This document shows, in pieces, positions 1,090 to 11,859 of a DNA stretch of 17,422 bases. A model generated the notes under the pieces. That model worked only from the letters and a program-made list of their open reading frames with translations, was not told the DNA's origin and did no database searches. The translations under genes and the position numbers were made by a program. Origin of the DNA: Bryobacterales bacterium (GTDB taxonomy: Bacteria; Acidobacteriota; Terriglobia; Bryobacterales; Bryobacteraceae); NCBI GenBank assembly GCA_003132865.1, contig PKYZ01000817.1:1-17422 (forward strand), given 5' to 3'. Every line of letters starts with the position of its first letter. The stretch's first letter is position 1.

Positions 1090-1120
1090 CGCTGTCATCC
1101 TTTTCGCTGCACGCGGGCCG

Positions 1121-1522
1121 CTAGCTGTCCAAGTAAACCTCGATATCGTTCAACTCAAGAAGATCGCGCTTCTTGAGCAGCACTGGAATGCCCGGACGAA
1201 CTTGCAACTCCGCCGCCGTGATTCCGAGCAATAGTGCCACGATCGGAATGCGGCGGCCCCACGCGGCCCCGATCTCGGCCCAAACGTAAGGCCGTTCGAG
1301 CGCCCAAGGCGTAAGCAACACCACCAGTTCGTGCGCCCGTTGTAGGAAGTCGAGGATGTCTTCTTCGAAGTCCGCGCCGGCATCGACTTGGCCCTCGTCC
1401 AAGAAAGGTGTCGCGCCGCGCGCCTCGATTTCCCGGGCGATCTGCTTTGCAACCCAAGTATCCGGGCCGCTGTGGCTGACGAAGACCAATCGCTTTTTTG
1501 TGCTCGAAGACTCATCGGCCAC
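1121..1522 (-). CDS. TIR-domain protein (upstream member of a tandem pair)
   Basis: A second TIR domain, only distantly similar to its neighbour. RLVFVSHSGPD is at residues 11-21, PFLDEGQVDAGADFEEDI at about 39-56, and RPYVWAEIGAAWGRR at about 77-91 carries the expected catalytic Glu (E83). The C-terminus is LLELNDIEVYLDS. The GTG at 1522 gives 133 residues, like the neighbouring TIR protein. The frame stays open to a TTG at 1705, but that 61-residue extension is Arg-rich, unlike a folded domain, and would overlap the previous gene by 11 bases, so I reject it. The GTG has GGGA directly in front but no well-spaced ribosome-binding site, so the start is uncertain. An NAD-consuming role is inferred from the family; the sequence does not show what it senses. 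Confidence 0.8.
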   Translation of the reverse strand: MADESSSTKKRLVFVSHSGPDTWVAKQIAREIEARGATPFLDEGQVDAGADFEEDILDFLQRAHELVVLLTPWALERPYVWAEIGAAWGRRIPIVALLLGITAAELQVRPGIPVLLKKRDLLELNDIEVYLDS

Positions 1523-1694
1523 TCCCAGTATTGTACCAGTGGGGCGGCGCCTTGCGGCGCTAATCCGGAAGTTGCGTTTCGCACGGCGTAGTTCCGTGTA
1601 TATCCCGTCCGGCGCAACGCCGCGCGAAGGCGTGTGGAAATTTCGGCGCCTTGTCTGCGCTAAGACGTTGTTCCCCGATGGCTTGATGGCATTC

Positions 1695-1964
1695 CTATCC
1701 GGCAAACATCTTCAGTGCTTCCAGCGCGAGAAGTTTTGCGGACTCGACCTCACCCCGTCCAAAAAGCGCGAAAGCTTGTTCGGCCGCGCGCGCCGCTGCC
1801 TCTATTTCCGGATGGTATTGGGCTTCTCTCCCTTTATCGCCACCCTTCAGCCATGTGTGTTGCTTGAGCCAGGCGACGACAGCGGCTGGTTTTCCCGGGT
1901 GAATTTGGGAGGAGTTATTCTCGGCGACAGCGGTAAGAATTATGCGAACCAAAGTAGCTTCCAT
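1695..1964 (-). CDS. Small helical hypothetical protein upstream of the TIR pair
   Basis: An 89-residue protein starting at the ATG at 1964, with GAGGA at good spacing upstream (an upstream in-frame TTG at 1991 is less likely). It is soluble-looking and has no signal peptide. The N-terminal helix is MEATLVRIILTAVAENN, the middle holds AVVAWLKQHTWLKGG, and the C-terminal half (about residues 51-89) is a regular alpha-hairpin of the kind EAAARAAEQAFALFGRGEVE followed by SAKLLALEALKMF. That last part resembles a TPR-like helix pair, but one pair is too little to call it. I do not recognise a family. It is the first gene of the minus-strand run leading into the two TIR genes, with a 172-base gap to the chosen start of the next one, so it may share their transcript. 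Confidence 0.55.
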   Translation of the reverse strand: MEATLVRIILTAVAENNSSQIHPGKPAAVVAWLKQHTWLKGGDKGREAQYHPEIEAAARAAEQAFALFGRGEVESAKLLALEALKMFAG

Positions 1965-2125
1965 GGGTCCTCGATCCTCGGCCAGCCTCAACTGCCGAAC
2001 CGGTAATCGTATCAGGCCGCGCCTGAGGCGTGCGGATCGCTGTAGATCTCCATTACCTCAATCCTCCCTGCGTACACCACGTCATGGCCAGCGCGCTGAA
2101 TGGGTAATGTTGTCTTTGCGCTTCG

Positions 2126-2154
2126 GCGATACGGAGTTTTTGGGGCGAACTCAA
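2126..2154 (-). promoter_or_regulatory. Weak candidate promoter ahead of the small-protein/TIR cluster
   Basis: On the minus strand TTGAGT (2154-2149) and TATCGC (2131-2126) are separated by 17 bases. This places a start of transcription near 2119, about 155 bases ahead of the ATG at 1964. The -10 is poor. Just upstream (around 2166-2176) lies a near-palindrome TATACGGTATA that could be an operator. The rest of 1965-2191 shows nothing else I can name. Confidence 0.22.
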
Positions 2155-2191
2155 GTGCCTTTTCTATACGGTATACCTTGCGCGCTCCCCA

Positions 2192-2998
2192 TCACCTCTG
2201 CTCGGCCACACCAATCTGTTCCGTGGTCAGCACATCGCCCGGCTCAAGGGAATTCAGGAGCACCCAACCCGTGCGGCCAAAATCCGGCCCTGTGGTGCCC
2301 AACACGGCCAACCTGTCCCATATTATGATCTGCTCGGCGGCGACTTTTCTCGATCCAAGGCTGAAGGTCTTCTTCTGCAAAAGGCGTACTTCTTGGGCCT
2401 TCTCGACAATGAAACCGCAGTCGTATTTCAGCAGTTCATCCAACTTCTTGCGGAGCATAACGCCCATTAGGGACTTCGTTGCCAAGTAATCGTTAAAGCA
2501 CCCTTCATCGTTGGCGACGAAGCCCGAGAAATGGAAGCCGTCTTCAACCCTCAGGCGTTCAGCCTTCTCCAAAGTGAATGCCACCGAATCAAAATCCGCT
2601 GGGTAGAACTTCGTCGGTTGTCCAAACGCATAGCTGACTTCGTGGGCGGAATCCTTTTCAAAATCGCAGGCGGTGCAGAGATCGAAGTGGATAACCGAAC
2701 CGTCTTTCTTGTGAACGACCCCATTGATGAACACACGCAGGAGTCTGCCGCCCGATACGTTCTTTAATGTGCCTTCAAAAGCCGGGATGTCCTGTTTGAA
2801 GTAATCGGAGTAGCGGAACATCTTCAAAGCGCTTAAAGTTATCGTCGGAGCACCGCTCCGGTCCTTCACTTCAAATACGGACGGCTGGGCTGACTTGTTA
2901 GCGCCGGGTTCGTGCGATTGACCCGTTTGGGCGGTGGCGGGCATCCACAGTCCGCAAAAAGCCATTAGGGAAAGCGAAATGGTCAGCAGCAGTGCCAT
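2192..2998 (-). CDS. Secreted hypothetical protein
   Basis: A 268-residue protein from the ATG at 2998 (a TTG two codons upstream is also in frame). Residues 1-24 form a type I signal peptide ending PATA-Q, so it is exported. The mature part has a beta-rich segment (about 50-150) with FEGTLKNVSGGRLLRVFING, the look of an immunoglobulin-like fold such as FxxG/NEAT-adjacent acidobacterial proteins, and a CTAC motif (C108, C111) that could form a disulfide or bind metal. The C-terminal third is charged and helical (MLRKKLDELLKYD). It stands between the TIR cluster and a membrane peptide gene, on the same strand, with 227 bases to the next gene. I do not recognise the family and propose no function. 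Confidence 0.7.
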   Translation of the reverse strand: MALLLTISLSLMAFCGLWMPATAQTGQSHEPGANKSAQPSVFEVKDRSGAPTITLSALKMFRYSDYFKQDIPAFEGTLKNVSGGRLLRVFINGVVHKKDGSVIHFDLCTACDFEKDSAHEVSYAFGQPTKFYPADFDSVAFTLEKAERLRVEDGFHFSGFVANDEGCFNDYLATKSLMGVMLRKKLDELLKYDCGFIVEKAQEVRLLQKKTFSLGSRKVAAEQIIIWDRLAVLGTTGPDFGRTGWVLLNSLEPGDVLTTEQIGVAEQR

Positions 2999-3179
2999 AC
3001 GCAAACTGTAGCAGGATTTCAGACTGATGGGGTTGATGGCGTTATCTTAAATGGAACTAGAAGCGTCGGTCTTATCGCTTCCGCCGTGTGGTTGAACCGC
3101 AATTCCAATTCTTGCTTTTGCCCCGAGTTCATTCTAATATATGGAGAGAGTTGAAGGCGGTGCGGTTGGCAGGTTACAG

Positions 3180-3305
3180 TCACTTTGCCTGCTCGTCAAG
3201 ACTTTTCTTAGAGTTTTTTAAAAGAGATACTACTTGGTTTATCACAGCGGCGAGTAGGCCGAGGCATGCCGTCACAATGCCGATGATGGAGGAAGGCTCC
3301 GCCAT
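3180..3305 (-). CDS. Small single-span membrane peptide (41 residues)
   Basis: A short minus-strand frame, ATG at 3305 and TGA at 3182-3180. It encodes a 41-residue peptide with one clear hydrophobic span (IIGIVTACLGLLAAVINQVV, residues 7-26) and a basic then polar tail (LLKNSKKSLDEQAK). The hydrophobic span followed by positive charges fits an N-out single-span topology. No strong ribosome-binding site is visible, which is the main doubt. It is transcribed away from the plus-strand membrane protein at 3457. The surrounding 3005-3456 otherwise shows no gene. Function unknown; small holin-like or toxin-like peptides look like this, but nothing more specific can be said. Confidence 0.4.
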   Translation of the reverse strand: MAEPSSIIGIVTACLGLLAAVINQVVSLLKNSKKSLDEQAK

Positions 3306-3456
3306 GCCAAATTAGACGTCGGTCGCGTGGAGAATGTTTCAAACCCTTGTGTAGGGGCCAAAAAAAGGGGTACAAAGGGCGTATGCCATGGCAGACTCCT
3401 GCCGAGGTGGCTGCGCATCAACAGCGGTTAAAAGTATAAACGGAGTCCTCTCAAAC

Positions 3457-4089
3457 ATGGGATATCAATGGGGCAGGTTCATTTGGTGGCTTGGCCAGAA
3501 TTCAGCCGCCGTTCAAGCGCTTGCGGCTGTTGTCACGGTTCTGCTCACTGGCGTCCTCATCTTTGTCACTATTCGCTACGTTTTGCTAACGCGCAAGCTC
3601 GTTGAAGCCAGCGAAGCATCAATACGAGCCGGCTTTATGCCTGATATTAATGCAAATATTGACTTTACACATCCACGCAAAGACGAACTTTCAATCTACG
3701 TAAAGAACACTGCTGAGCCGCCTATTTGTATTCTGCGGGCGAAGTTAATTGGCGGGTCGCTATTTAAATGGCCGGAAACCGCAAACCCACCGAATGAGTA
3801 CGCTGCCGAGCTGAAGTTCGGCCCTTCCGATATAACGTCTTTAACATCTCTGTTTCTACGGAAGAATGAAGAGGCGCGTGGCGTGTTCAGGATAACACCA
3901 ATCGAACATATAGATGACGCTGATTGGCTAAAAGCCATAAACTATCGAGTATCACTGACCGCCACGGTGATAATTGAAGTCTCGGATATTACTGGGCGAA
4001 TTCTATACTCGTTCACAGTACTACGCGATGCTGAGACCGCCAACACGCGCATTCGGACACAGTTTCCGAGTTCATTTGACAAAACCTAA
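3457..4089 (+). CDS. Single-pass membrane protein of unknown function
   Basis: A 210-residue protein. I prefer the ATG at 3457 (MGYQWGRFIWWLGQN) because GGAG lies 11 bases upstream and the preceding 23 in-frame codons from 3388 look non-coding; the longer start cannot be excluded. Residues about 20-42 form one transmembrane helix, followed by YVLLTRKLVEAS, a linker typical of anchored bacterial proteins with a cytoplasmic domain. The rest (about 60-200) alternates beta-like segments with KNTAEPPICILRAKLIGGS and YRVSLTATVIIEVSD and resembles an immunoglobulin-like or C2-like sandwich. Base composition is visibly richer in A+T than the genes right of 4139, as if acquired. It abuts the broken translocase gene at 4139. 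Function unknown. Confidence 0.65.
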   Translation: MGYQWGRFIWWLGQNSAAVQALAAVVTVLLTGVLIFVTIRYVLLTRKLVEASEASIRAGFMPDINANIDFTHPRKDELSIYVKNTAEPPICILRAKLIGGSLFKWPETANPPNEYAAELKFGPSDITSLTSLFLRKNEEARGVFRITPIEHIDDADWLKAINYRVSLTATVIIEVSDITGRILYSFTVLRDAETANTRIRTQFPSSFDKT

Positions 4090-4138
4090 TAGTAGTTTTA
4101 TGCTTAGGGCGAACACCCGTTTTAACCTGTTGTTCTCG

Positions 4139-4450
4139 GCGCGCAAGGAGATCGAGGAACGCATTCGCCGGCTCGGCCAGAAAGCGCGCGCCGCCGGCAT
4201 CCACCTTGTGCTGGCCGTGCAGCAGCCAGGCCGCGAGATCGTCAAAGGCGCCTTGCAGGCGAATATCCCGGCGCGGGTCGGTCTGCGGGTCACCAGCCGG
4301 ATCGAGTCCAAGATGTTGCTGGATCGCAGCGGCGCAGAGGATCTGCTGGGCAACGGCGACCTCCTGTTCAAGGATATCGGCGATCCCGTTCGGTTGCAGG
4401 GATTGTACCTCCCGCCCGACGAACGCAGGGCAATCTTCGGCGCTCGCTGA
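4139..4450 (+). pseudogene. FtsK/SpoIIIE-type DNA translocase, C-terminal remnant
   Basis: The last 103 codons of an FtsK-like motor domain. ARKEIEERIRRLGQKARAAG aligns with the helix before Walker-B-distal strand residues, IHLVLAVQQPGREIVKGALQ with the 'GIHLVLATQRPSVDVITG' signature, NIPARVGLRVTSRIESKMLL with the 'NIPxRIAFxVxSxxDSRxIL' stretch, and GAEDLLGNGDLLF with the 'GAExLLGxGDML' motif. The Walker A and B parts are missing. The frame continues left of 4139 only into bases shared with the end of the membrane-protein gene and loses all similarity there, so the gene was cut at about 4138. The codons from 4139 to the TGA at 4450 are intact and GC-rich. It may be a leftover of a host or integrative-element translocase; no function is expected. 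Confidence 0.8.
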
Positions 4451-4591
4451 TTCGGGGCATTCTATCAGGCCAAGCCCCTGCGCTGAATCGACGCATTCTC
4501 GAATCGGGACCTGCAACGGGTTAGTTGGTTAGGACGCTGCGTTCAGCCTGTGGGAAGAATCGCTCCCTGACGGTCGCGGCTCGGTAGCGCC

Positions 4592-4613
4592 GAAAAGAGG
4601 CCCGCCTCGGGCC
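4592..4613 (-). terminator. Intrinsic terminator of the pterin operon
   Basis: Read on the minus strand, GGCCCG-AGG-CGGGCC forms a 6-bp G/C hairpin and is followed by TCTTTTC. It lies 27 bases beyond the stop codon of the GTP cyclohydrolase gene, as expected for a rho-independent terminator of the three-gene run that starts at 6096. The U-tract is short, so strength is uncertain. Confidence 0.6.
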
Positions 4614-4639
4614 GTCCCTCCAGAGATCGCAGTGCACGG

Positions 4640-5254
4640 TTACCGGCTGCCGGAAGTATGCACTAATGAAAGGAACTCGTCCCGCGTTTCTTTCTGGTTG
4701 CGGAACGCGCCCAGCATAGCGCTGGTCACGGCACCGGAGTGCTGCTTCTCCACGCCGCGCATCATCATGCACAGGTGCCGCGCCTCCAGGATGACGGCGA
4801 CGCCCTGGGGATTGACGGCGTCGGCGATAGCATCGGCGATCTGTGTGGTGAGGCGCTCCTGCACCTGCAGGCGGCGGGCGAAGACGTCGACGACGCGGGG
4901 GAGCTTGGAGAGGCCGACGACCTTGCCTTTGGGCAGATAGGCGATGTGCGCCTTGCCGAAGAAGGGCAGCAGATGATGTTCGCACATGCTGAAGAACTCG
5001 ATGTCCTTCACCACCACCATTCCGTCCGAGTTCTCGCGGGAAAACAGCGCGCCGTTGACGATGCTTTGGATATCCGTTTCATAGCCGCTGGTCAAAAAGC
5101 GGAAAGCCTTCTCAGCGCGCTCCGGCGTCCGCACCAGGCCTTCCCGGGCTGGATCTTCGCCGACCTTCAACAACAACTCTTTCATTAGCGATGCAATGGA
5201 CTCCTGGTCCTGCTTCGGTTGCATCACCTTCACAAGTGCTCTGTTTTTCTTCAT
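4640..5254 (-). CDS. folE: GTP cyclohydrolase I
   Basis: Converts GTP to 7,8-dihydroneopterin triphosphate, the first step to folate, biopterin-type pterins and queuosine; a cytosolic homodecamer in known members. The 204-residue length is normal. The zinc ligands are visible: C91 and H94 in [10 protein letters not shown] and C162 in RHLCMMMRG. Also present are [15 protein letters not shown] (about 38-51), [20 protein letters not shown] (114-133), with the usual [12 protein letters not shown] following, and the H161-C162 pair. The N-terminus ([20 protein letters not shown]) is a slightly long lead. The gene starts 3 bases after the stop of a PTPS-family gene and ends just before an intrinsic terminator, so it is the last gene of a pterin operon. 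Zinc-dependent type IA is clear. Confidence 0.96.
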
Positions 5255-5257
5255 TGC

Positions 5258-5683
5258 TCAGCTTGCCCTCAACTCGAAAAGATTGCGCTTGGTTTCCCGC
5301 AATCGAATGGCTTCCAGGCGCGGCCCGTCGCCGGAAAACACGGAATGCCAATGCGCAGCCAAGCGCTCCTCAATCACGCGCAGAATGTTCTCGGATGTAG
5401 GAACTACTTCCTGGAACTCGCGCACGTCGGCGTTCATATACTTGTGATCGAAATCGTGGACAACGCGCGAGGCCACCAAATTGTCCAAGGCTGACACGTT
5501 TATAACCTGTCCAGACACCGGATCGAGCGGTCCCGAGACGGACACTTCCAAAACGTAGTCGTGCCCGTGCCCATGCGGGTTATTGCATTTGCCGTACAGC
5601 GCGCGATTCTCGCCTTCGGAGAACCGCTCGGAATGCAGCCGGTGGGACGCGGCGAATCGATAACGGCGCGTGACGCGAATCAT
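5258..5683 (-). CDS. 6-pyruvoyl-tetrahydropterin synthase / QueD family, catalytic Cys present
   Basis: A 141-residue PTPS-fold protein that would act on dihydroneopterin triphosphate, the FolE product, to give 6-pyruvoyl- or 6-carboxy-tetrahydropterin. Zinc ligands are H14 (FAASHRLH), H39 and H41 (CNNPHGHGHDY). The catalytic Cys is C33, the Asp-His pair is D79-H80 in VVHDFDHKYMN, and the pterin-anchoring Glu is E130 in LRETKRN. The CNNPxGHGH spacing matches animal-type PTPS better than E. coli QueD. Its ATG overlaps the previous gene's TGA by 4 bases (ATGA) and its stop is 3 bases from folE, so the three genes are translationally coupled. Which product it makes (biopterin route or queuosine route) cannot be read from sequence. 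No sepiapterin reductase, queC or queE is in the window. Confidence 0.93.
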   Translation of the reverse strand: MIRVTRRYRFAASHRLHSERFSEGENRALYGKCNNPHGHGHDYVLEVSVSGPLDPVSGQVINVSALDNLVASRVVHDFDHKYMNADVREFQEVVPTSENILRVIEERLAAHWHSVFSGDGPRLEAIRLRETKRNLFELRAS

Positions 5684-6096
5684 TTGCGTGCTCCCGCGTA
5701 ATCCACATACAGGTCATCGGTTTCGTACAGCCGGACGTTTTGCAATCGCGCGGGGCTTCCCTCGAAAGACGGCTCTAAGCGATTCCAGATCTCAGCCGCA
5801 ACGTTCTCGGCAGTGGGCACAACTTTATCGAAAGGCGGGACCTCATAATTCAGGAAGCGATGATCCATGGGTTCGATCACGGCTTTGTGGATGATCTCCT
5901 TGAGCTGCTTGAGATCGAAGACCATACCGGTGGCGGGGTCCGGGTCACCTTCCAGCGTCACTTCCAAAACATAGTTGTGACCGTGACCGTTCGGATTCGC
6001 TGCCAAGCCGTAGAGTGCGCGATTCTGCTCGAGGGTTAGCGAGGATTGGGCACAAACGTGCGACGCAGAGAATTCAGCTTTGCGGGTGATGAGCAT
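5680..6096 (-). CDS. PTPS/QueD-family paralogue lacking the catalytic Cys
   Basis: A 138-residue PTPS-fold protein, first gene of the pterin operon. The start is the ATG at 6096 (MLITRKAEFSASHVCA); the open frame runs far upstream to 6897, but that part lies antisense to a real gene. Zinc-site histidines are kept: H13 (SASH), H38 and H40 in ANPNGHGHNYVLEV. D78-H79 (EPMDHRFLN) and E125 (LYETDDLYVDY) are also kept. The position of the catalytic Cys in its neighbour (GKCNNP) is Ala here (GLAANP), and there is no Glu at that place as in PTPS-III. A Cys does follow the first zinc His (C15). It may have another reaction, bind pterin only, or pair with the neighbour. The ATG has no clear ribosome-binding site, and a near-perfect TATAAT lies upstream. 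Confidence 0.9.
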   Translation of the reverse strand: MLITRKAEFSASHVCAQSSLTLEQNRALYGLAANPNGHGHNYVLEVTLEGDPDPATGMVFDLKQLKEIIHKAVIEPMDHRFLNYEVPPFDKVVPTAENVAAEIWNRLEPSFEGSPARLQNVRLYETDDLYVDYAGARK

Positions 6097-6121
6097 TACC
6101 AAATGGTTGGATGCAGCGGCA

Positions 6122-6149
6122 TTGGGATAAGATACTCTAAGATTATAGT
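6122..6149 (+). promoter_or_regulatory. Candidate promoter for the TlpA/HAD-kinase-like operon
   Basis: TTGGGA (6122-6127) and TATAGT (6144-6149), spaced by 16 bases, face right. A transcript would begin near 6156 and reach the ATG at 6178 with AAGGAA and AGGGA in its short leader. The site overlaps the minus-strand -10 described separately. Confidence 0.45.
6142..6147 (-). promoter_or_regulatory. Candidate -10 of the pterin operon
   Basis: The minus strand reads TATAAT from 6147 to 6142, a consensus -10 lying 46 bases ahead of the ATG at 6096. No good -35 is seen at 16-18 bases upstream. It shares bases with the plus-strand -10 at 6144-6149, so polymerase cannot occupy both at once. Confidence 0.4.
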
Positions 6150-6177
6150 AGAAGCTTAAGGAAACGCAGGGACTTAG

Positions 6178-6939
6178 ATGAAACAGAACAAGATTGATCT
6201 GGCGATCAAGGCAGCCACGGGAGTTTTGCTGGTGGCGTTGGCTTTCGTGATTGTGTACTCGGTGCAGGATCATGTGGTGGGAGTGGGTGACAGCGCCCCA
6301 GAATTCCGGGTCAAGACCGAAAACGGCGCCGTGGTGACGCCGACGAATTTTGGCGGCAAGGTGCTGATCTTGAATTTCTGGGCCAGTTGGTGCGCGCCGT
6401 GCGTGCAGGAGATCCCGTCTCTGAATCAGATCCAGAAAATGTTTGCATCGCAAGGTTTGGTGGTGCTGGGCGTCAACGTGGACAGCAAAGAGGAGCTGTA
6501 CCGGAAAATGTTGGAACCCAGGGTGGCGGAAACGTTGGTGCCCGGCGTGCGGGAGTTCCTGCAGCGGCATGCCGGACAACCGGTTGGCTTGGCGACCAAC
6601 GCCGAACCGGCGAACGTGGATTTTATACTGGATCGGGGCGGCCTGCGCGCGTATTTCCGAGTGGTCGTGGATGGCCACCAGGTGCAACATCCCAAGCCGC
6701 ATCCGGAAATCTATCTGCGCGCCGCCGGGCTGCTTTCGGTCGCGCCCCGAAACTGCATCGTGTTTGAAGATTCCTTTTCCGGCGTCGAAGCGGCGCGGGC
6801 GGCCGGCGCGCGCATCGTGGGTGTGAGAACCACGCATCGTGAGTTGCCGGGCGCGGATCTGGCAATCGACGATTTCCGCGACCCGCAACTGGGGCAACTT
6901 GAAGCATGGCTGCGGGCGCAGGTCCCGGACGCGCCGTAA
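6178..6939 (+). CDS. Chimera: membrane-anchored TlpA-like thioredoxin N-half fused to HAD phosphatase-like C-half
   Basis: One uninterrupted 253-codon frame. Residues 10-29 are a membrane anchor. Residues 36-103 are TlpA/ResA-like: GDSAPEFRV, then ILNFWASWCAPCVQEIPSLN with C72 and C75, then LVVLGVNVDS. The cis-Pro half of the thioredoxin fold is absent. From about 104 the sequence becomes a HAD phosphatase of the beta-phosphoglucomutase type: LVPGVREFL, GLATNAEPAN (motif II, T140), HPKPHPEIYLRAA (motif III, K173), CIVFEDSFSGVEAARAAGAR (motif IV, E197, D198). The HAD nucleophile motif DxDG and the cap domain are missing. Both halves therefore lack essential elements. The junction is near KEELYRKML, where either family could read similarly, as if a deletion joined two genes in frame. 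It starts an operon with the gene at 6949 (9-base gap). Confidence 0.85.
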   Translation: MKQNKIDLAIKAATGVLLVALAFVIVYSVQDHVVGVGDSAPEFRVKTENGAVVTPTNFGGKVLILNFWASWCAPCVQEIPSLNQIQKMFASQGLVVLGVNVDSKEELYRKMLEPRVAETLVPGVREFLQRHAGQPVGLATNAEPANVDFILDRGGLRAYFRVVVDGHQVQHPKPHPEIYLRAAGLLSVAPRNCIVFEDSFSGVEAARAAGARIVGVRTTHRELPGADLAIDDFRDPQLGQLEAWLRAQVPDAP

Positions 6940-6948
6940 AGGGGGACT

Positions 6949-8652
6949 ATGGGGTCACTTTTGCGCATGGTGATGCCAGTGGCGCTACCTTTAGGAGTTT
7001 TCGCTATCGCCGCGGTTATTTTCGCGATCTGGCGCCGCGATGGACGGCTCCGCGGGCAGCGCGAAATGTTGCGCCGAGCCTATGAACTAGGCGAAGAGAT
7101 CCTGGGCGCCTCTTCGGCGGACCAGATCCTCGACAAGGTCAGGGTAGTGGTGCCCAGAATCTTCGGAGTCAACACTGCGGCACTTTACCTGTACAATCGC
7201 CACGCGAAAACGCTCGATGCGGTCGGCCGCAGCGGCGCCGATCACACTTCCATTCCACTTTCGGCGCCCCCGGCGGGACCGCAAGCCGGCGCGGTAGCCT
7301 GCTTCCACTACCGGACCCTGCTGGCGATTCCCGACACCTCCCGCAGCCCATTTCCGGTGACGGGACAGCCGGGCCCAGGGGGCACCCCGGATGCGCCGCG
7401 GTCGCTGCTGTTCGTTCCCATGCTGGCGCAAGGCGAGGTATTGGGCATTCTGCAGATGGACCAGCGCGACCACGCGCGGGTTTTCAGCCGTGAGGAGCAG
7501 ACGCTGACGCAGCATCTGGCCAACCAGATCGGCGTGGCGGTGCGGCTGCTGGACCAGCGATCGGTGCGCGAGCAGCTTTTCCGCACGGAAAAGCTGGCGG
7601 CGGTGGGGCAGCTCATTTCGGGAATTGTGAACGATCTGCGGACGCCTTTGGCGGCGATCGCGAGCCTGACCCAGGCGGCTCAACTGGCGCAAGCGGCGGG
7701 CAACGGACTAGCGGGGCCGGCGGGGGTGGACTTGGCGGGCATAGCCGCGGAGGCGCATCGCGCGGCCGGGATCGTCGACCGGCTGGTGGGGTTCGCCGGC
7801 ACGGGTCCGGCGCAGACGCAACTCGTGGATCTGAATGCTCTGTTGCTGAACCTGATCGAGTTTCGGGAACGCGAGTGGAAGGTGCGCGGAATTCGGGCGC
7901 GCTGTCTGCTGGCGGAAGAACCGGCCACCGTGCTGGGATCGCACGGGCAACTGGAGCAGGTGTTTCTGAATCTGCTGGTGCATGCCGAGCAATCGCTTTC
8001 CGAGGCGAGCGAGAAACTGATCACCATACGGAGCAGCGTGGTGGCGCGGCGCATCCTGGTGGAGATCGGCTACAGCGGTCTGAAGGGGGCCGCGGACCCG
8101 TTTGTGCCGGGAGCGGACGATGCGTCCGGTGGCGCGGGCTTGGGCGTTTGCCGTAGTTTGATCACCGGCCATGGCGGCGAGATACGGCTGGTACAGCAGG
8201 CAGCGGGCGATCCGGCGTTTCAAGTGGAGCTCCCCTGCGCGGTGCGGGAGAAGCCCAGCGGGCCTGCGCCGGAGAACGGCCGCGACGGCGCCCACACGTT
8301 GACGGCGCTGGTGATCGAACCGGCCGAAGCCATTCAGACGCAGTTGCGCGATCTGCTGGCGGTCCGCGGATATCGCGTGGTGCCGGTGAACAGCTCCGAC
8401 GAGGGTCTGGACCTGGCGCAACGCCTGCGCTTCGATGCCATCTTCTGCTCGGTTCACGCACCGGGGCTCAATTGGGTGGAAACCGCCGAGCAGGTGAAGA
8501 CTCGCGTGGGCGGATTCGTGCTGCTTTCCGACTCTTATAACGCGGATCTATCGGCCGATTTCGCGGGCGAGCGCCGCTTCGTGCTGGCCAAGCCGGTGGA
8601 TGAGAAGCAATTGGACCGCGTGCTCGAAGCCATCCAGGTTGGCTCCCGGTAG
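6949..8652 (+). CDS. Membrane-anchored GAF - degenerate histidine kinase - degenerate receiver protein
   Basis: 567 residues with GGGGG just before the ATG. A membrane helix (about 10-28) is followed by a GAF domain (about 47-200; FVPMLAQGEVLGILQMDQRD), a dimerisation/H-box region, an ATPase-like domain (about 290-430) and a receiver-like domain (about 451-563). Signature residues are altered. The H-box reads GIVNDLRTPL with N228 in place of the phospho-acceptor His. The N-box reads NLLVHAEQ, keeping N341 but with H345 for the second Asn. The Asp-containing DxGxG is VEIGYSG. In the receiver, FDAIFCSVHAPG has S501 at the phospho-acceptor Asp and the acidic pair is replaced by IEPAE. The receiver Lys (K548, LAKPV) and the ATP-lid glycines (GGAGLGV, GHGG) remain. 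It is probably a signalling pseudoenzyme, co-transcribed with the chimera upstream. Confidence 0.9.
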   Translation: MGSLLRMVMPVALPLGVFAIAAVIFAIWRRDGRLRGQREMLRRAYELGEEILGASSADQILDKVRVVVPRIFGVNTAALYLYNRHAKTLDAVGRSGADHTSIPLSAPPAGPQAGAVACFHYRTLLAIPDTSRSPFPVTGQPGPGGTPDAPRSLLFVPMLAQGEVLGILQMDQRDHARVFSREEQTLTQHLANQIGVAVRLLDQRSVREQLFRTEKLAAVGQLISGIVNDLRTPLAAIASLTQAAQLAQAAGNGLAGPAGVDLAGIAAEAHRAAGIVDRLVGFAGTGPAQTQLVDLNALLLNLIEFREREWKVRGIRARCLLAEEPATVLGSHGQLEQVFLNLLVHAEQSLSEASEKLITIRSSVVARRILVEIGYSGLKGAADPFVPGADDASGGAGLGVCRSLITGHGGEIRLVQQAAGDPAFQVELPCAVREKPSGPAPENGRDGAHTLTALVIEPAEAIQTQLRDLLAVRGYRVVPVNSSDEGLDLAQRLRFDAIFCSVHAPGLNWVETAEQVKTRVGGFVLLSDSYNADLSADFAGERRFVLAKPVDEKQLDRVLEAIQVGSR

Positions 8653-8691
8653 CACGATGCCCGCGTGGCGCCCGCGCGGTAAAGTAATCTT

Positions 8692-9162
8692 ATGCGGAAA
8701 TGGCTGCCGATCGTTCTGTTGTGCGCCTGGCCCTTACTGGCGCAAAAGTATACCGGGCCGCGCCCCGCTAAGCCGGACCTTCCCTACCTGATGCACGCCG
8801 ACAACCTGATACCGGCGGAGAGCGCGGAAGCCAAGCAGGAAGACCGGAAGGGTGAAGTCACCTACCTGATTCCCGGCGCCAACTCCACGGTGCGCACGCC
8901 GCTGGCGTCGCCGGCGTTTCTGATTCTTACGGACCAACTCCAGGCGGACCGGCTGCAGCTCTTCAAACTGCAGTCCAAGGGCGGCCAGCGCGAAGTGCTA
9001 TTCCGTCGCAAAAACAAGCTGGTGGCGCGCCCCATCCGGCTCAACGTCACGCGCCTCGACGAGAACTTGTACAAGATCGAAGTGGATGAGATTTTGGAAA
9101 ATGGCGAATACTCGCTGTCACCGGCGGACTCGAACGAGGTTTTCTGTTTCCAGGTCTATTAG
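8692..9162 (+). CDS. Secreted hypothetical protein
   Basis: 156 residues. MRKWLPIVLLCAWPLLAQ is a type I signal peptide with cleavage near ALLAQ-KY. The mature protein is basic, with YLIPGANSTVRTPLASPAF (about 58-76), then LQADRLQLFKLQSKGGQREV and a beta-rich end (IEVDEILENGEYSLSPADSN) that closes with FCFQVY. The layout suggests a small periplasmic beta-sandwich. I do not recognise a family beyond its acidobacterial look. It follows the kinase-like gene by 39 bases on the same strand and may belong to that operon. Its TAG stop codon (9160-9162) is the first base group of the hairpin repeat starting at 9160, so the repeat sits exactly at the 3' end. Confidence 0.75.
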   Translation: MRKWLPIVLLCAWPLLAQKYTGPRPAKPDLPYLMHADNLIPAESAEAKQEDRKGEVTYLIPGANSTVRTPLASPAFLILTDQLQADRLQLFKLQSKGGQREVLFRRKNKLVARPIRLNVTRLDENLYKIEVDEILENGEYSLSPADSNEVFCFQVY

Positions 9163-9218
9163 GCGCCTGCGGCGCCAACATCGACAAAAGCTTGTCGATG
9201 TTGAGAAGTCAGAAGTCA
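9160..9218. repeat. Two-hairpin dispersed repeat, copy 1
   Basis: A 58-base unit also found at 12781-12838, identical at 55 positions. Hairpin 1 is GGCGCC-TGC-GGCGCC. Hairpin 2 has 12-base arms CAACATCGACAA and TTGTCGATGTTG around an AAGC loop. Two GAAGTCA heptamers follow. It lies between convergent genes and includes the stop codons of both (plus-strand TAG at 9160, minus-strand TGA at 9211-9209). It could act as a bidirectional terminator or be a non-autonomous REP/MITE-like element. Confidence 0.85.
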
Positions 9219-10540
9219 GTAGCCGGAATAATGCCGGCTTTGGTCTTCTGTATTCTGTCTCCTGTCTTCTGTCTCCTGTCTTCGGTCTTCCATTCCGAAA
9301 CGAACGTGTGGTCGAGCGCCAGCCGGTCGCTTTCGAACATGAACATCCCAACGCCCTCGCGCTTCTCGATAGGACCGCACAAAATCCGCTCTCCCTTGGA
9401 TCGAGGCACCGCTACCAGCGTCAGCGGAACCTCACTGCCATGCACCTCGATGGAATGGAATTTCAGACCCACGGCGAAGTAACTCGAGGGCTGGTATTGT
9501 TGCTCGAAGCGAACGATCCGCCCGTGCGCGATGGCGCCTTCAGGAGCCAGGACGCTCCCATGTGCCCGGATCGCATTCAGCAACTGTCCTTCGATGGCGT
9601 CGCCGGCAAACGAGAGCTCCGAGTCGATTGTTGAGCGCAATGCGATCTTAATCGTTATTCCGGACGGTATGGCTACCGGCTTTTGCGGCACTGCCGACTC
9701 GCCTGCAGACGGCTCCAGATCGGTCCGGAAAACCGATTCGGTCTGAAACTCACGGCAGGCAGCGTACTCGATCCGGTTATCATAGCGGTGGGCTTCCGCG
9801 TCCCACATTTTGAGAACCGTCAACTGCGGAAGCAGGAAATCGGAGCCGCCAATCCGGGCCCGTCGATAGTCAATAGTAGTCTCGACGCGGCACGTTTGCG
9901 ACTCCCGCGGAGGATTGGGAACCTCAATCGTCATCCGGCTGAGTTCGGCGTTCTCCGGATCGATCCAAAATCTGCCCTCATAAGCCATGGTCGCCAGATC
10001 TTCCGTCCGCGGGCCAACTTTCACCTGGTAATGACTGACCGCCAGCGGCACGCGATAGCGGTATACGGCAAAGGCTCGCCCCTGGTCTTGCTCGGGGCCG
10101 AGATACTGGTACTCCGACCCGTTGGCTGAAAAGACGCTCATCAGGAATGGACCAAAATCGCCCGATCCCGTCATGCCACCGCCGACAATCTTTTCCACAT
10201 CCTCGGATTGGAAGCGTCGAGCGCCCACCCAGGAAAAGATCTCCGCGCCTTCGGAGACAGTCACATCCAATTTGAACCGGTCTGTCCAGAACAGCGTCAT
10301 CTGCGGCTCGATCTTCGGATCCTGCACATCGGCGCAACTGCTCACGCGGACAGCGGGAATCGCCTCGAACCTGGACCGGCGCACCGTCTGGACGCACGTG
10401 TACTTCGGCAATCTCTCGATATTCTCGACGATTTTCGCGCGGGCCTGATTCAGCAGCGCGAGGGAATCGATTTCTCCGCACAGGGCGAGCGGGCACATCG
10501 CTCCGAGAATCACAGCGGCGTGGACGGCGAGCCGCGTCAC
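9209..10540 (-). CDS. Secreted acidobacterial protein with repeat-encoded C-terminal tail
   Basis: 443 residues from a GTG at 10540, with AAGGGAGGGG upstream. The N-terminal 21 residues are a signal peptide. The mature N-terminus has IERLPKYTCVQTVRRSRF (about 41-58), the Tyr-Thr-Cys-Val-Gln motif I recognise from numerous acidobacterial secreted proteins of unknown function, followed by a beta-rich domain (DRFKLDVTVSEGAEIFSWVG). The C-terminal third (about 300-415) contains SGITIKIALRSTIDSELSFA and GSVLAPEGAIAHGRIVRFEQ, typical of a TrbI/Hcp-like beta-roll seen in such proteins. The last 25 or so residues (TEDRRQKTGDRIQKTKAG...) come from the heptamer tandem repeat, and the stop lies inside a GAAGTCA unit, so the native stop seems lost. 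It is the last gene of a minus-strand run. Confidence 0.8.
   Translation of the reverse strand: MTRLAVHAAVILGAMCPLALCGEIDSLALLNQARAKIVENIERLPKYTCVQTVRRSRFEAIPAVRVSSCADVQDPKIEPQMTLFWTDRFKLDVTVSEGAEIFSWVGARRFQSEDVEKIVGGGMTGSGDFGPFLMSVFSANGSEYQYLGPEQDQGRAFAVYRYRVPLAVSHYQVKVGPRTEDLATMAYEGRFWIDPENAELSRMTIEVPNPPRESQTCRVETTIDYRRARIGGSDFLLPQLTVLKMWDAEAHRYDNRIEYAACREFQTESVFRTDLEPSAGESAVPQKPVAIPSGITIKIALRSTIDSELSFAGDAIEGQLLNAIRAHGSVLAPEGAIAHGRIVRFEQQYQPSSYFAVGLKFHSIEVHGSEVPLTLVAVPRSKGERILCGPIEKREGVGMFMFESDRLALDHTFVSEWKTEDRRQKTGDRIQKTKAGIIPATDF
9244..9292. repeat. Seven-unit heptanucleotide tandem repeat
   Basis: Seven head-to-tail copies of TCTYCTG (with variants TATTCTG, TCTTCGG, TCTTCCA). On the minus strand they read CAGAAGA-like, close to the CAGAAGT rotation of the plus-strand GAAGTCA heptamers at 9205-9218, so the two blocks form a loose inverted pair around a small AGCCGG/CCGGCT hairpin (9221-9239). 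The block is coding on the minus strand, giving the RRQKTGDRIQKT tail of the secreted protein. Confidence 0.75.
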
Positions 10541-10578
10541 ATATGCGCCCCTCCCTTGAGCGCTCCGACATTCTCACT

Positions 10579-11370
10579 CTACCGCAGTCCGATCTCTCTC
10601 AAGTACGCCAGCAGCGCCTCCGGGTTATCGGTGATGATGGCATCCACCTGCGCCGCGATCAGGCGCCGCCAGTCGCGGGGACGATTGGCCGTCCAGGCGA
10701 CCACTTCCAAGCCTGCGGCATGCGCCGCGTGGACCTGCCTGGCAGAGGCCAGCGCGTGATAGGGCGCCACGATCCCCGCTTCAGCCCGGTGCGCGATCGC
10801 GACGAAGCGCCTCGGAGGGCCGACATACAGCGCTCCGAGACGGATCTCGGGCGCCAGCCGCCCGATGGCGTGCAGTATGCGGAAATCGAAGGACTGCACG
10901 ATCACCCGCTTTTCCAGTTTGTGCCGCCGGATCGCCTGGCACACCAGATCGGCGAAACGTTCCGGTGGAGGCGCCAGTCGAGGGCGATCCGGGAAACTCT
11001 TGATTTCGATGTTGAAGAGGAAATGGCCGCGGTCCGACAGGTCGAGCACCTGGTCGAGCGTGGGGACGCGCGCGCCTGGAATGAGCGTCTGTTTTGGGAA
11101 GCGCGGGTTCCGCACGGCGCCGCAGTCCCAGCGTTCGAGTTCGGCAAGAGTCAGGTCCCGGATGACGCGCGGCGGGTCGGGCGACTTGCAGATCGACCGG
11201 TTCAACTTGGGATCGTGCGAAACCACGACCACGTCGTCGCGAGTGACCGCCACGTCCATCTCCAGCGCATCGGCGCCCACGGAGATGGCGTATTCAAATC
11301 CCGGCAAAGTGTTTTCCGGCCGCATGGCGCGCGCGCCACGGTGGCCGTGTACTAAGATGGGCCGTCCCAC
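10579..11370 (-). CDS. Glycerophosphodiester phosphodiesterase (GDPD family)
   Basis: Hydrolyses glycerophosphodiesters to glycerol-3-phosphate and an alcohol. 263 residues, close to UgpQ length. It starts at a GTG (11370) whose first residues already reach the catalytic motif HGHRGARAMRPENTL, with H10, R11 and E19. The metal ligands E37 and D39 are in ADALEMDVAVTRDD and the second His H52 in VVVSHDPKLNR. Later signatures are FNIEIKS, VIVQSFDF, VVAWTANRP and VDAIITDNPEALLAYL. No signal peptide, so probably cytosolic. Its start lies 18 bases after the thioredoxin-like gene and its stop 38 bases before the secreted-protein gene, all on the minus strand. The physiological substrate cannot be told. 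Confidence 0.93.
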   Translation of the reverse strand: MGRPILVHGHRGARAMRPENTLPGFEYAISVGADALEMDVAVTRDDVVVVSHDPKLNRSICKSPDPPRVIRDLTLAELERWDCGAVRNPRFPKQTLIPGARVPTLDQVLDLSDRGHFLFNIEIKSFPDRPRLAPPPERFADLVCQAIRRHKLEKRVIVQSFDFRILHAIGRLAPEIRLGALYVGPPRRFVAIAHRAEAGIVAPYHALASARQVHAAHAAGLEVVAWTANRPRDWRRLIAAQVDAIITDNPEALLAYLREIGLR

Positions 11371-11388
11371 TGGATTTAGAATAGCCCG

Positions 11389-11859
11389 TTAGAGGAGGGA
11401 GATGAGGTGCTCTATGAGACTGGGCGGCGTTTCACCCGGTTCAGTAATCAGTTTGCCGACCCGGTAGCGCAGCACGAGATAGCTAAATAGCGTCCAGCCT
11501 GTTTGCTTCCAACGGACGCGACCTTCACGATCCAGCAGCACGAAGGTTGGTCTGCCATTCACGTTAAAGCGATCGGCGACTTCACCACCGCCGTCGCGCA
11601 CCTCGAGCCGCCGGACCGCGTGCACGCCGATATATCTGCGCCATGCTTGCTCGTCCTCGTCAGCGCTGATGCCGACGACCGCTACATCGTTTGAACCGAA
11701 CCGGCCAGCCAAATCCGCGAGAGCTGGGCCGCTCGCACGGCAGGGAGCGCACCAGGTAGCCCAAAAGTCCAGGAGCACAACACCTGGCCGCGGGCCAGGA
11801 TTGCACTGGATAGCAGCAGCGAAAAGACAAGCCATAACTTTCGCATAGCAGCCTCGCAC
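11389..11859 (-). CDS. TlpA-like thioredoxin, signal peptide out of frame (frameshift likely)
   Basis: The C-terminal part is a clear thioredoxin-fold oxidoreductase. VVLLDFWATWCAPCRASGPA has the redox CAPC pair (C37, C40), GISADEDEQAW follows, and NVNGRPTFVLLDREGRV holds the cis-Pro. The uninterrupted frame begins at a GTG (11859) with AAGGA touching it, an unlikely start. The well-placed start is the ATG at 11846 (GAGG five bases upstream). It opens a textbook signal peptide, MRKLWLVFSLLL up to about ARGQ, in the other frame. That frame would have to slip by -1 to enter the thioredoxin frame, around the GC hairpin CTGGCC-CGC-GGCCAG just before VVLLDFW. So one base seems lost, by mutation or sequencing error. 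If intact, the product would be a periplasmic thiol-disulfide protein. The first gene of a run with GDPD. Confidence 0.75.
   Translation of the reverse strand: MRGCYAKVMACLFAAAIQCNPGPRPGVVLLDFWATWCAPCRASGPALADLAGRFGSNDVAVVGISADEDEQAWRRYIGVHAVRRLEVRDGGGEVADRFNVNGRPTFVLLDREGRVRWKQTGWTLFSYLVLRYRVGKLITEPGETPPSLIEHLISLL

Follow-up and report, generated by a model that had tools for sequence, protein, structure and literature searches.

An in-frame TlpA-HAD open reading frame in a Bryobacterales contig: a very probable assembly chimera of different genomes

The open reading frame and its two incomplete domains

The window, i.e. the whole stretch of DNA that was analyzed, is 17,422 nt in length and comes from contig PKYZ01000817.1 of a Bryobacterales bacterium (assembly GCA_003132865.1). 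The ORF list of the window displays an ATG start codon that opens a 253 amino acid forward-strand frame, in which the front of a TlpA-type thioredoxin is followed in frame by the rear of a HAD hydrolase. The positions of this chimeric ORF and of the features around it are given in Table 1.

Table 1. Positions of the chimeric ORF, its neighbors and the joins in the window
Feature	Start	End	Strand	Description and method
Chimeric ORF	6178	6939	+	253 aa; TlpA front (1–112) and HAD rear (104–253), in frame; ORF list, Pfam, tblastn
L001-identical segment	4952	6513		1562 nt, 100%; folE front, two PTPS-type genes, tlpA front; blastn and ungapped comparison
Two PTPS-type genes	5258	6109	-	Inside the L001-identical segment; Pfam applied to the first (5258–5683)
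Mosaic FolE (GTP cyclohydrolase I)	4640	5254	-	Residues 1–101 from the L001-type parent, 102–204 from another genome
Left join zone in folE	4952	5020		L001 identity starts at 4952; 31–41-nt exact stretches also elsewhere
Right join	6487	6513	+	27-nt KEELYRKML stretch; switch from L001 tlpA to HAD gene
Right-hand parent DNA	6486	8652	+	HAD rear and 567-aa GAF-domain protein; collinear with G047 contig C20, 85%

Analysis by Pfam shows an AhpC-TSA match at ORF residues 36–109, which covers only positions 1–75 of the 124-position profile, and a HAD_2 match at residues 106–216, which covers only positions 63–178 of 178. A complete thioredoxin domain with its cis-Pro half is not present, the AhpC-TSA match ending at 75, nor is HAD motif I with the nucleophilic Asp (DxD), the HAD_2 match beginning at 63. 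The sequence WCAPC, read from the translation, is found inside the AhpC-TSA match after a hydrophobic N-terminal stretch and is taken here to be the CxxC active site of a TlpA-type thioredoxin. The translation also contains TNAE, KPHPE and FEDSFSGV, which are presumably the later motifs of a HAD beta-phosphoglucomutase-like hydrolase.

A protein search with the fusion as query covered 5.8 billion proteins and gave 1183 matches; the figures refer to the best 120 of these. The top match listed, P0001, is a complete 229 aa HAD protein with the sequence LDMDGVIVD near its start, which is absent from the chimeric ORF. P0094 and P0095 are complete TlpA proteins of 180 aa, and P0095 is found on 39 contigs. 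P0095 fills the AhpC-TSA profile from position 1 to 122 of 124 and, in contrast to the partial domains of the chimeric ORF, both P0095 and P0001 fill most of their Pfam profiles. None of the best 120 of 1183 matches shows more than 50% identity in both halves. The fusion ORF itself is absent as a protein among the matches listed; it may have been missed in gene calling, or may be contained in a cluster formed at 90%.

By tblastn, ORF residues 1–113 display 99% identity to P0095, and residues 79–229 of P0001 align with window positions 6484–6936 (ORF residue 103 onward) at 98% identity. The two matches overlap at KEELYRKML, ORF residues 104–112. The first part thus resembles the TlpA/ResA/DsbE-type membrane-anchored thioredoxins (Pfam AhpC-TSA, Redoxin), but unlike these it stops after the first half of the domain, the part at P0095 positions 113–180 being absent. 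Similarly, the second part resembles the beta-phosphoglucomutase-like HAD hydrolases, which is the database name on several of the HAD matches, but does not have the first 78 residues, including the DMDG motif. The missing TlpA residues 113–180 and HAD residues 1–80 (with DMDG) were not detected elsewhere in the window by tblastn, where the best E-values are 0.22 and 1.7, respectively. The match with E-value 0.22 falls in a separate thioredoxin-like ORF at 11389–11859, which has 32% identity to full-length TlpA. This ORF is on the reverse strand, encodes 156 aa and covers the Pfam Thioredoxin_8 profile at positions 3–94 of 94.

The original prediction, which had described an in-frame ORF with a TlpA front and a HAD rear at this position, is correct in these respects, as it is for the thioredoxin without a cis-Pro half, for the HAD part without the DxDG nucleophile and for a junction at KEELYRKML compatible with both families. 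It had placed the TlpA part at residues 36–103. This is TlpA front sequence, however the boundary is slightly narrow, since residues 1–35 also belong to the TlpA parent.

Parents of the two sides and the joins between them

L001 is contig PMOK01000263.1 of the Bryobacterales MAG palsa_89. Alignment of the window with L001 shows identity at 1562 of 1562 positions (4952–6513), with a mismatch directly outside each end (4951 and 6514). Both ends of the identity are abrupt and are within coding sequence. To the left, inside folE (4668–4951), 199 of 284 positions are identical, and to the right of 6513 the window and L001 are unrelated. In L001 both genes at the ends of the segment, folE and tlpA (180 aa), are complete. 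Of the two PTPS-type genes in the segment, the second owes its name to a resemblance to the first, and the end given for it is approximate.

A second genome, G199, displays 92% identity to L001 over 2544 nt that span both break positions; in intervals of 100 nt the identity varies between 80% and 99% and does not change abruptly at the breaks. As G199 agrees with L001 across the breaks, L001 is taken to represent the native layout and the window to be the mosaic. The opposite possibility, that L001 is the misassembled side, is rejected on the match of G199 to L001 throughout.

The other parent resembles a different genome. From 6486 up to about 8653 the window is collinear with contig C20 of G047 at 85% identity, and further collinear pieces are found at 8680–9291 and 10587–11386 (87%). 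G047 has a complete HAD gene (228 aa) followed by a matching 572 aa GAF-domain gene; tlpA is not part of this arrangement. In the 567 aa GAF-domain protein of the window, HisKA and receiver matches are below the Pfam cut-offs. In the two match lists, 17 or more entries for HAD and the GAF protein have longest contigs of equal size as judged by eye, and these are taken as shared contigs. On the right side, the usual arrangement thus appears to be a HAD gene with the GAF gene after it. The contig of P0001 (10,941 nt) is not among the GAF-protein matches listed.

The KEELYRKML stretch is present in P0095 as VNVDSKEELYRKMLQRFQ and in P0001 as AHGAAKEELYRKMLEPRL. The window has VNVDSKEELYRKMLEPRV at this location, thus the switch of parents is inside KEELYRKML. 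This nine residue word is the longest common to P0095 and P0001, and a word of seven or more residues was shared in 0 of 1000 shuffled pairs; the sharing is more than chance. The 27-mer of the junction is found exactly in one of 257 genomes of the order (G001) and with up to three mismatches in one more (G199), in both cases inside tlpA. It was not found in a HAD gene, exactly or with up to three mismatches, in any of the 257 genomes, and the HAD gene of G047 differs from it at several positions. The identical residues in P0001 suggest that the two parents at the right join may be identical over all 27 nt. Since KEELYRKML is read in the same frame in both genes, the frame stays open across the join, and for the same reason its perfection is no evidence for function.

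On the left the segment ends inside folE, thus the FolE of the window is also a mosaic. Among 119 other listed matches (best 120 of 7999), residues 1–101 have relatives of up to 99% identity, and residues 102–204 have no relative above 73%. P0121, the mosaic FolE, appears only once among the matches listed, on one contig of 38,532 nt, and its source field has the sign (-) given to proteins that the window encodes. The exact 31–41-nt stretches at the left join are also found in loci of other genomes (L003, G047, G111, G141 and G194). A parent of the left-hand part of folE was not found among the listed FolE matches or the compared genomes. G047 as the relative of the left flank is only partly supported: repeated sequences of G047 have counterparts at 1–587 and 4556–4596, but folE positions 4661–5010 are 79% identical to G047, no closer than to G081, G111 or G194.

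Origin of the fused frame

The fusion ORF is very probably an assembly chimera of different Bryobacterales genomes from soil, and most likely not a real gene. The nearest relative changes abruptly within coding sequence, from L001 (4952–6513) to G047, and native unjoined versions of both sides are present, i.e. folE–tlpA in L001 and G199, and HAD–GAF in G047 at 85% identity. The L001-type piece of 1562 nt is set between DNA resembling other genomes of the order; its right edge is in the nine residue stretch common to the closest intact relatives and its left edge in a conserved folE stretch. The absence of divergence in this middle piece, its sudden start and end in conserved words and the native versions of both sides together argue for a chimeric contig. 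A metagenome assembler probably passed from one genome to another at shared words. No such protein would then be made, and a redox or phosphoryl function would need no explanation. Links between assembly graphs through shared k-mers are a described source of chimeric contigs in metagenome assembly (PMC7299287). The window resembles such contigs in having sequence of several genomes joined, probably at shared k-mers, and nothing essential differs, although the join here keeps the reading frame and mimics a fusion gene.

The distribution of both genes was surveyed across the order in 257 genomes, of which 175 show a match to HAD at E ≤ 1e-60 and 236 a match to TlpA at E ≤ 1e-35. With the fusion as query, five genomes show matches at E ≤ 1e-60 and every one is confined to one half, so that no match spans both halves at this threshold, which a strongly diverged fusion could escape. 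In the adjacency comparison 149 and 150 genomes have coordinates listed and both genes are listed in 96, a shared contig being judged by eye. HAD and tlpA are on one contig in five of the 96 (G070, G148, G149, G173 and G202) and are adjacent in none. The nearest pair is in G173, about 5.7 kb apart and on opposite strands; positions 1097–8033 of its contig C79 (L164) contain the HAD gene together with the folE-to-tlpA cluster.

These counts bear on the deletion proposed in the original prediction, either as a natural event or as an artefact, by which neighboring intact tlpA and HAD genes of a single genome would have been joined. Both genes do occur in the same bacterial order, however the side-by-side arrangement was seen in none of the 96 genomes, and the TlpA side of the window is identical to one genome while the HAD side resembles another. 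A deletion of this type is extremely unlikely. Of the proposal the artefact is retained, and the deletion of neighbors is not, as the halves follow different genomes. The original prediction had also considered a novel redox-plus-phosphoryl-binding membrane protein, for which no support was found. The probability is negligible that a membrane-anchored CxxC half-domain joined to a HAD fragment is retained by selection as a functional fusion. The intact frame and the hydrophobic N-terminal stretch are compatible with such a protein, although an artefact would show both as well. However the ORF is composed of the sequence of two genomes, both of its domains are incomplete, unlike those of P0095 and P0001 with their nearly full profile coverage, and no relative with both halves is found among the best 120 of 1183 matches or in the 257 genomes. 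The recurrence in independent genomes or assemblies that is expected of a natural fusion, which the original prediction itself put forward as support for function, is thus not seen in these sets; relatives have separate intact genes and no second fusion was found, which by its own test counts against a real fusion. A literature search returned nothing on a TlpA-HAD fusion in the portions of the sources covered; such a search is weak since the term HAD cannot be told apart from the common English verb form "had".

There is a small chance that the ORF is a natural recombinant. A 1.56-kb L001-type fragment would have been taken up and recombined in folE and, via a short stretch, into the HAD gene, which would leave a broken fusion gene, probably without function. 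The frame is intact, and either edge is in sequence suitable for homologous or microhomology-directed recombination. At the left join, a very recent transfer with its end in homologous tracts would give a similar picture. However this event must unite the folE and HAD loci, which are not neighbors in the relatives examined, must truncate HAD and must leave zero divergence over 1562 nt, and a second occurrence is found neither in the matches listed nor in the 257 genomes. It is less probable still, and very unlikely, that a real and very recent recombinant strain expresses the CxxC half-domain with the HAD fragment, as an early snapshot of a domain fusion made by microhomology.

With an assembly chimera as the preferred reading, the significance of the locus is that of a warning only: two genes joined in frame at a short word common to both can be mistaken for a new domain fusion. 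In practice one can ask if the two halves follow different genomes and if an adjacent gene, folE in this case, is a mosaic too.

Other sequences in the window

To the right of the GAF-domain gene, a 1.3-kb stretch at 9292–10586 is without a counterpart in the collinear G047 locus. Directly before it, at 9204–9290, is a short dispersed repeat that is present in many places in G047. Another short dispersed repeat of G047 is found at 4556–4596, to the left of folE.

Positions 4125–4450 encode the C-terminus of an ATPase of the FtsK/SpoIIIE type, with 87%–88% DNA identity to G161 and G165; the G165 version is 605 aa in length. The sequence starts abruptly after lower-GC sequence, and the contig may have a third join here. 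Positions 1–620 gave no match in a plasmid collection, and positions 1–587 resemble a many-copy element in G047 (73%–86% identity). Two adjacent small TIR-domain ORFs (Pfam TIR_2) are found on the reverse strand, at 700–1098 and 1121–1705.
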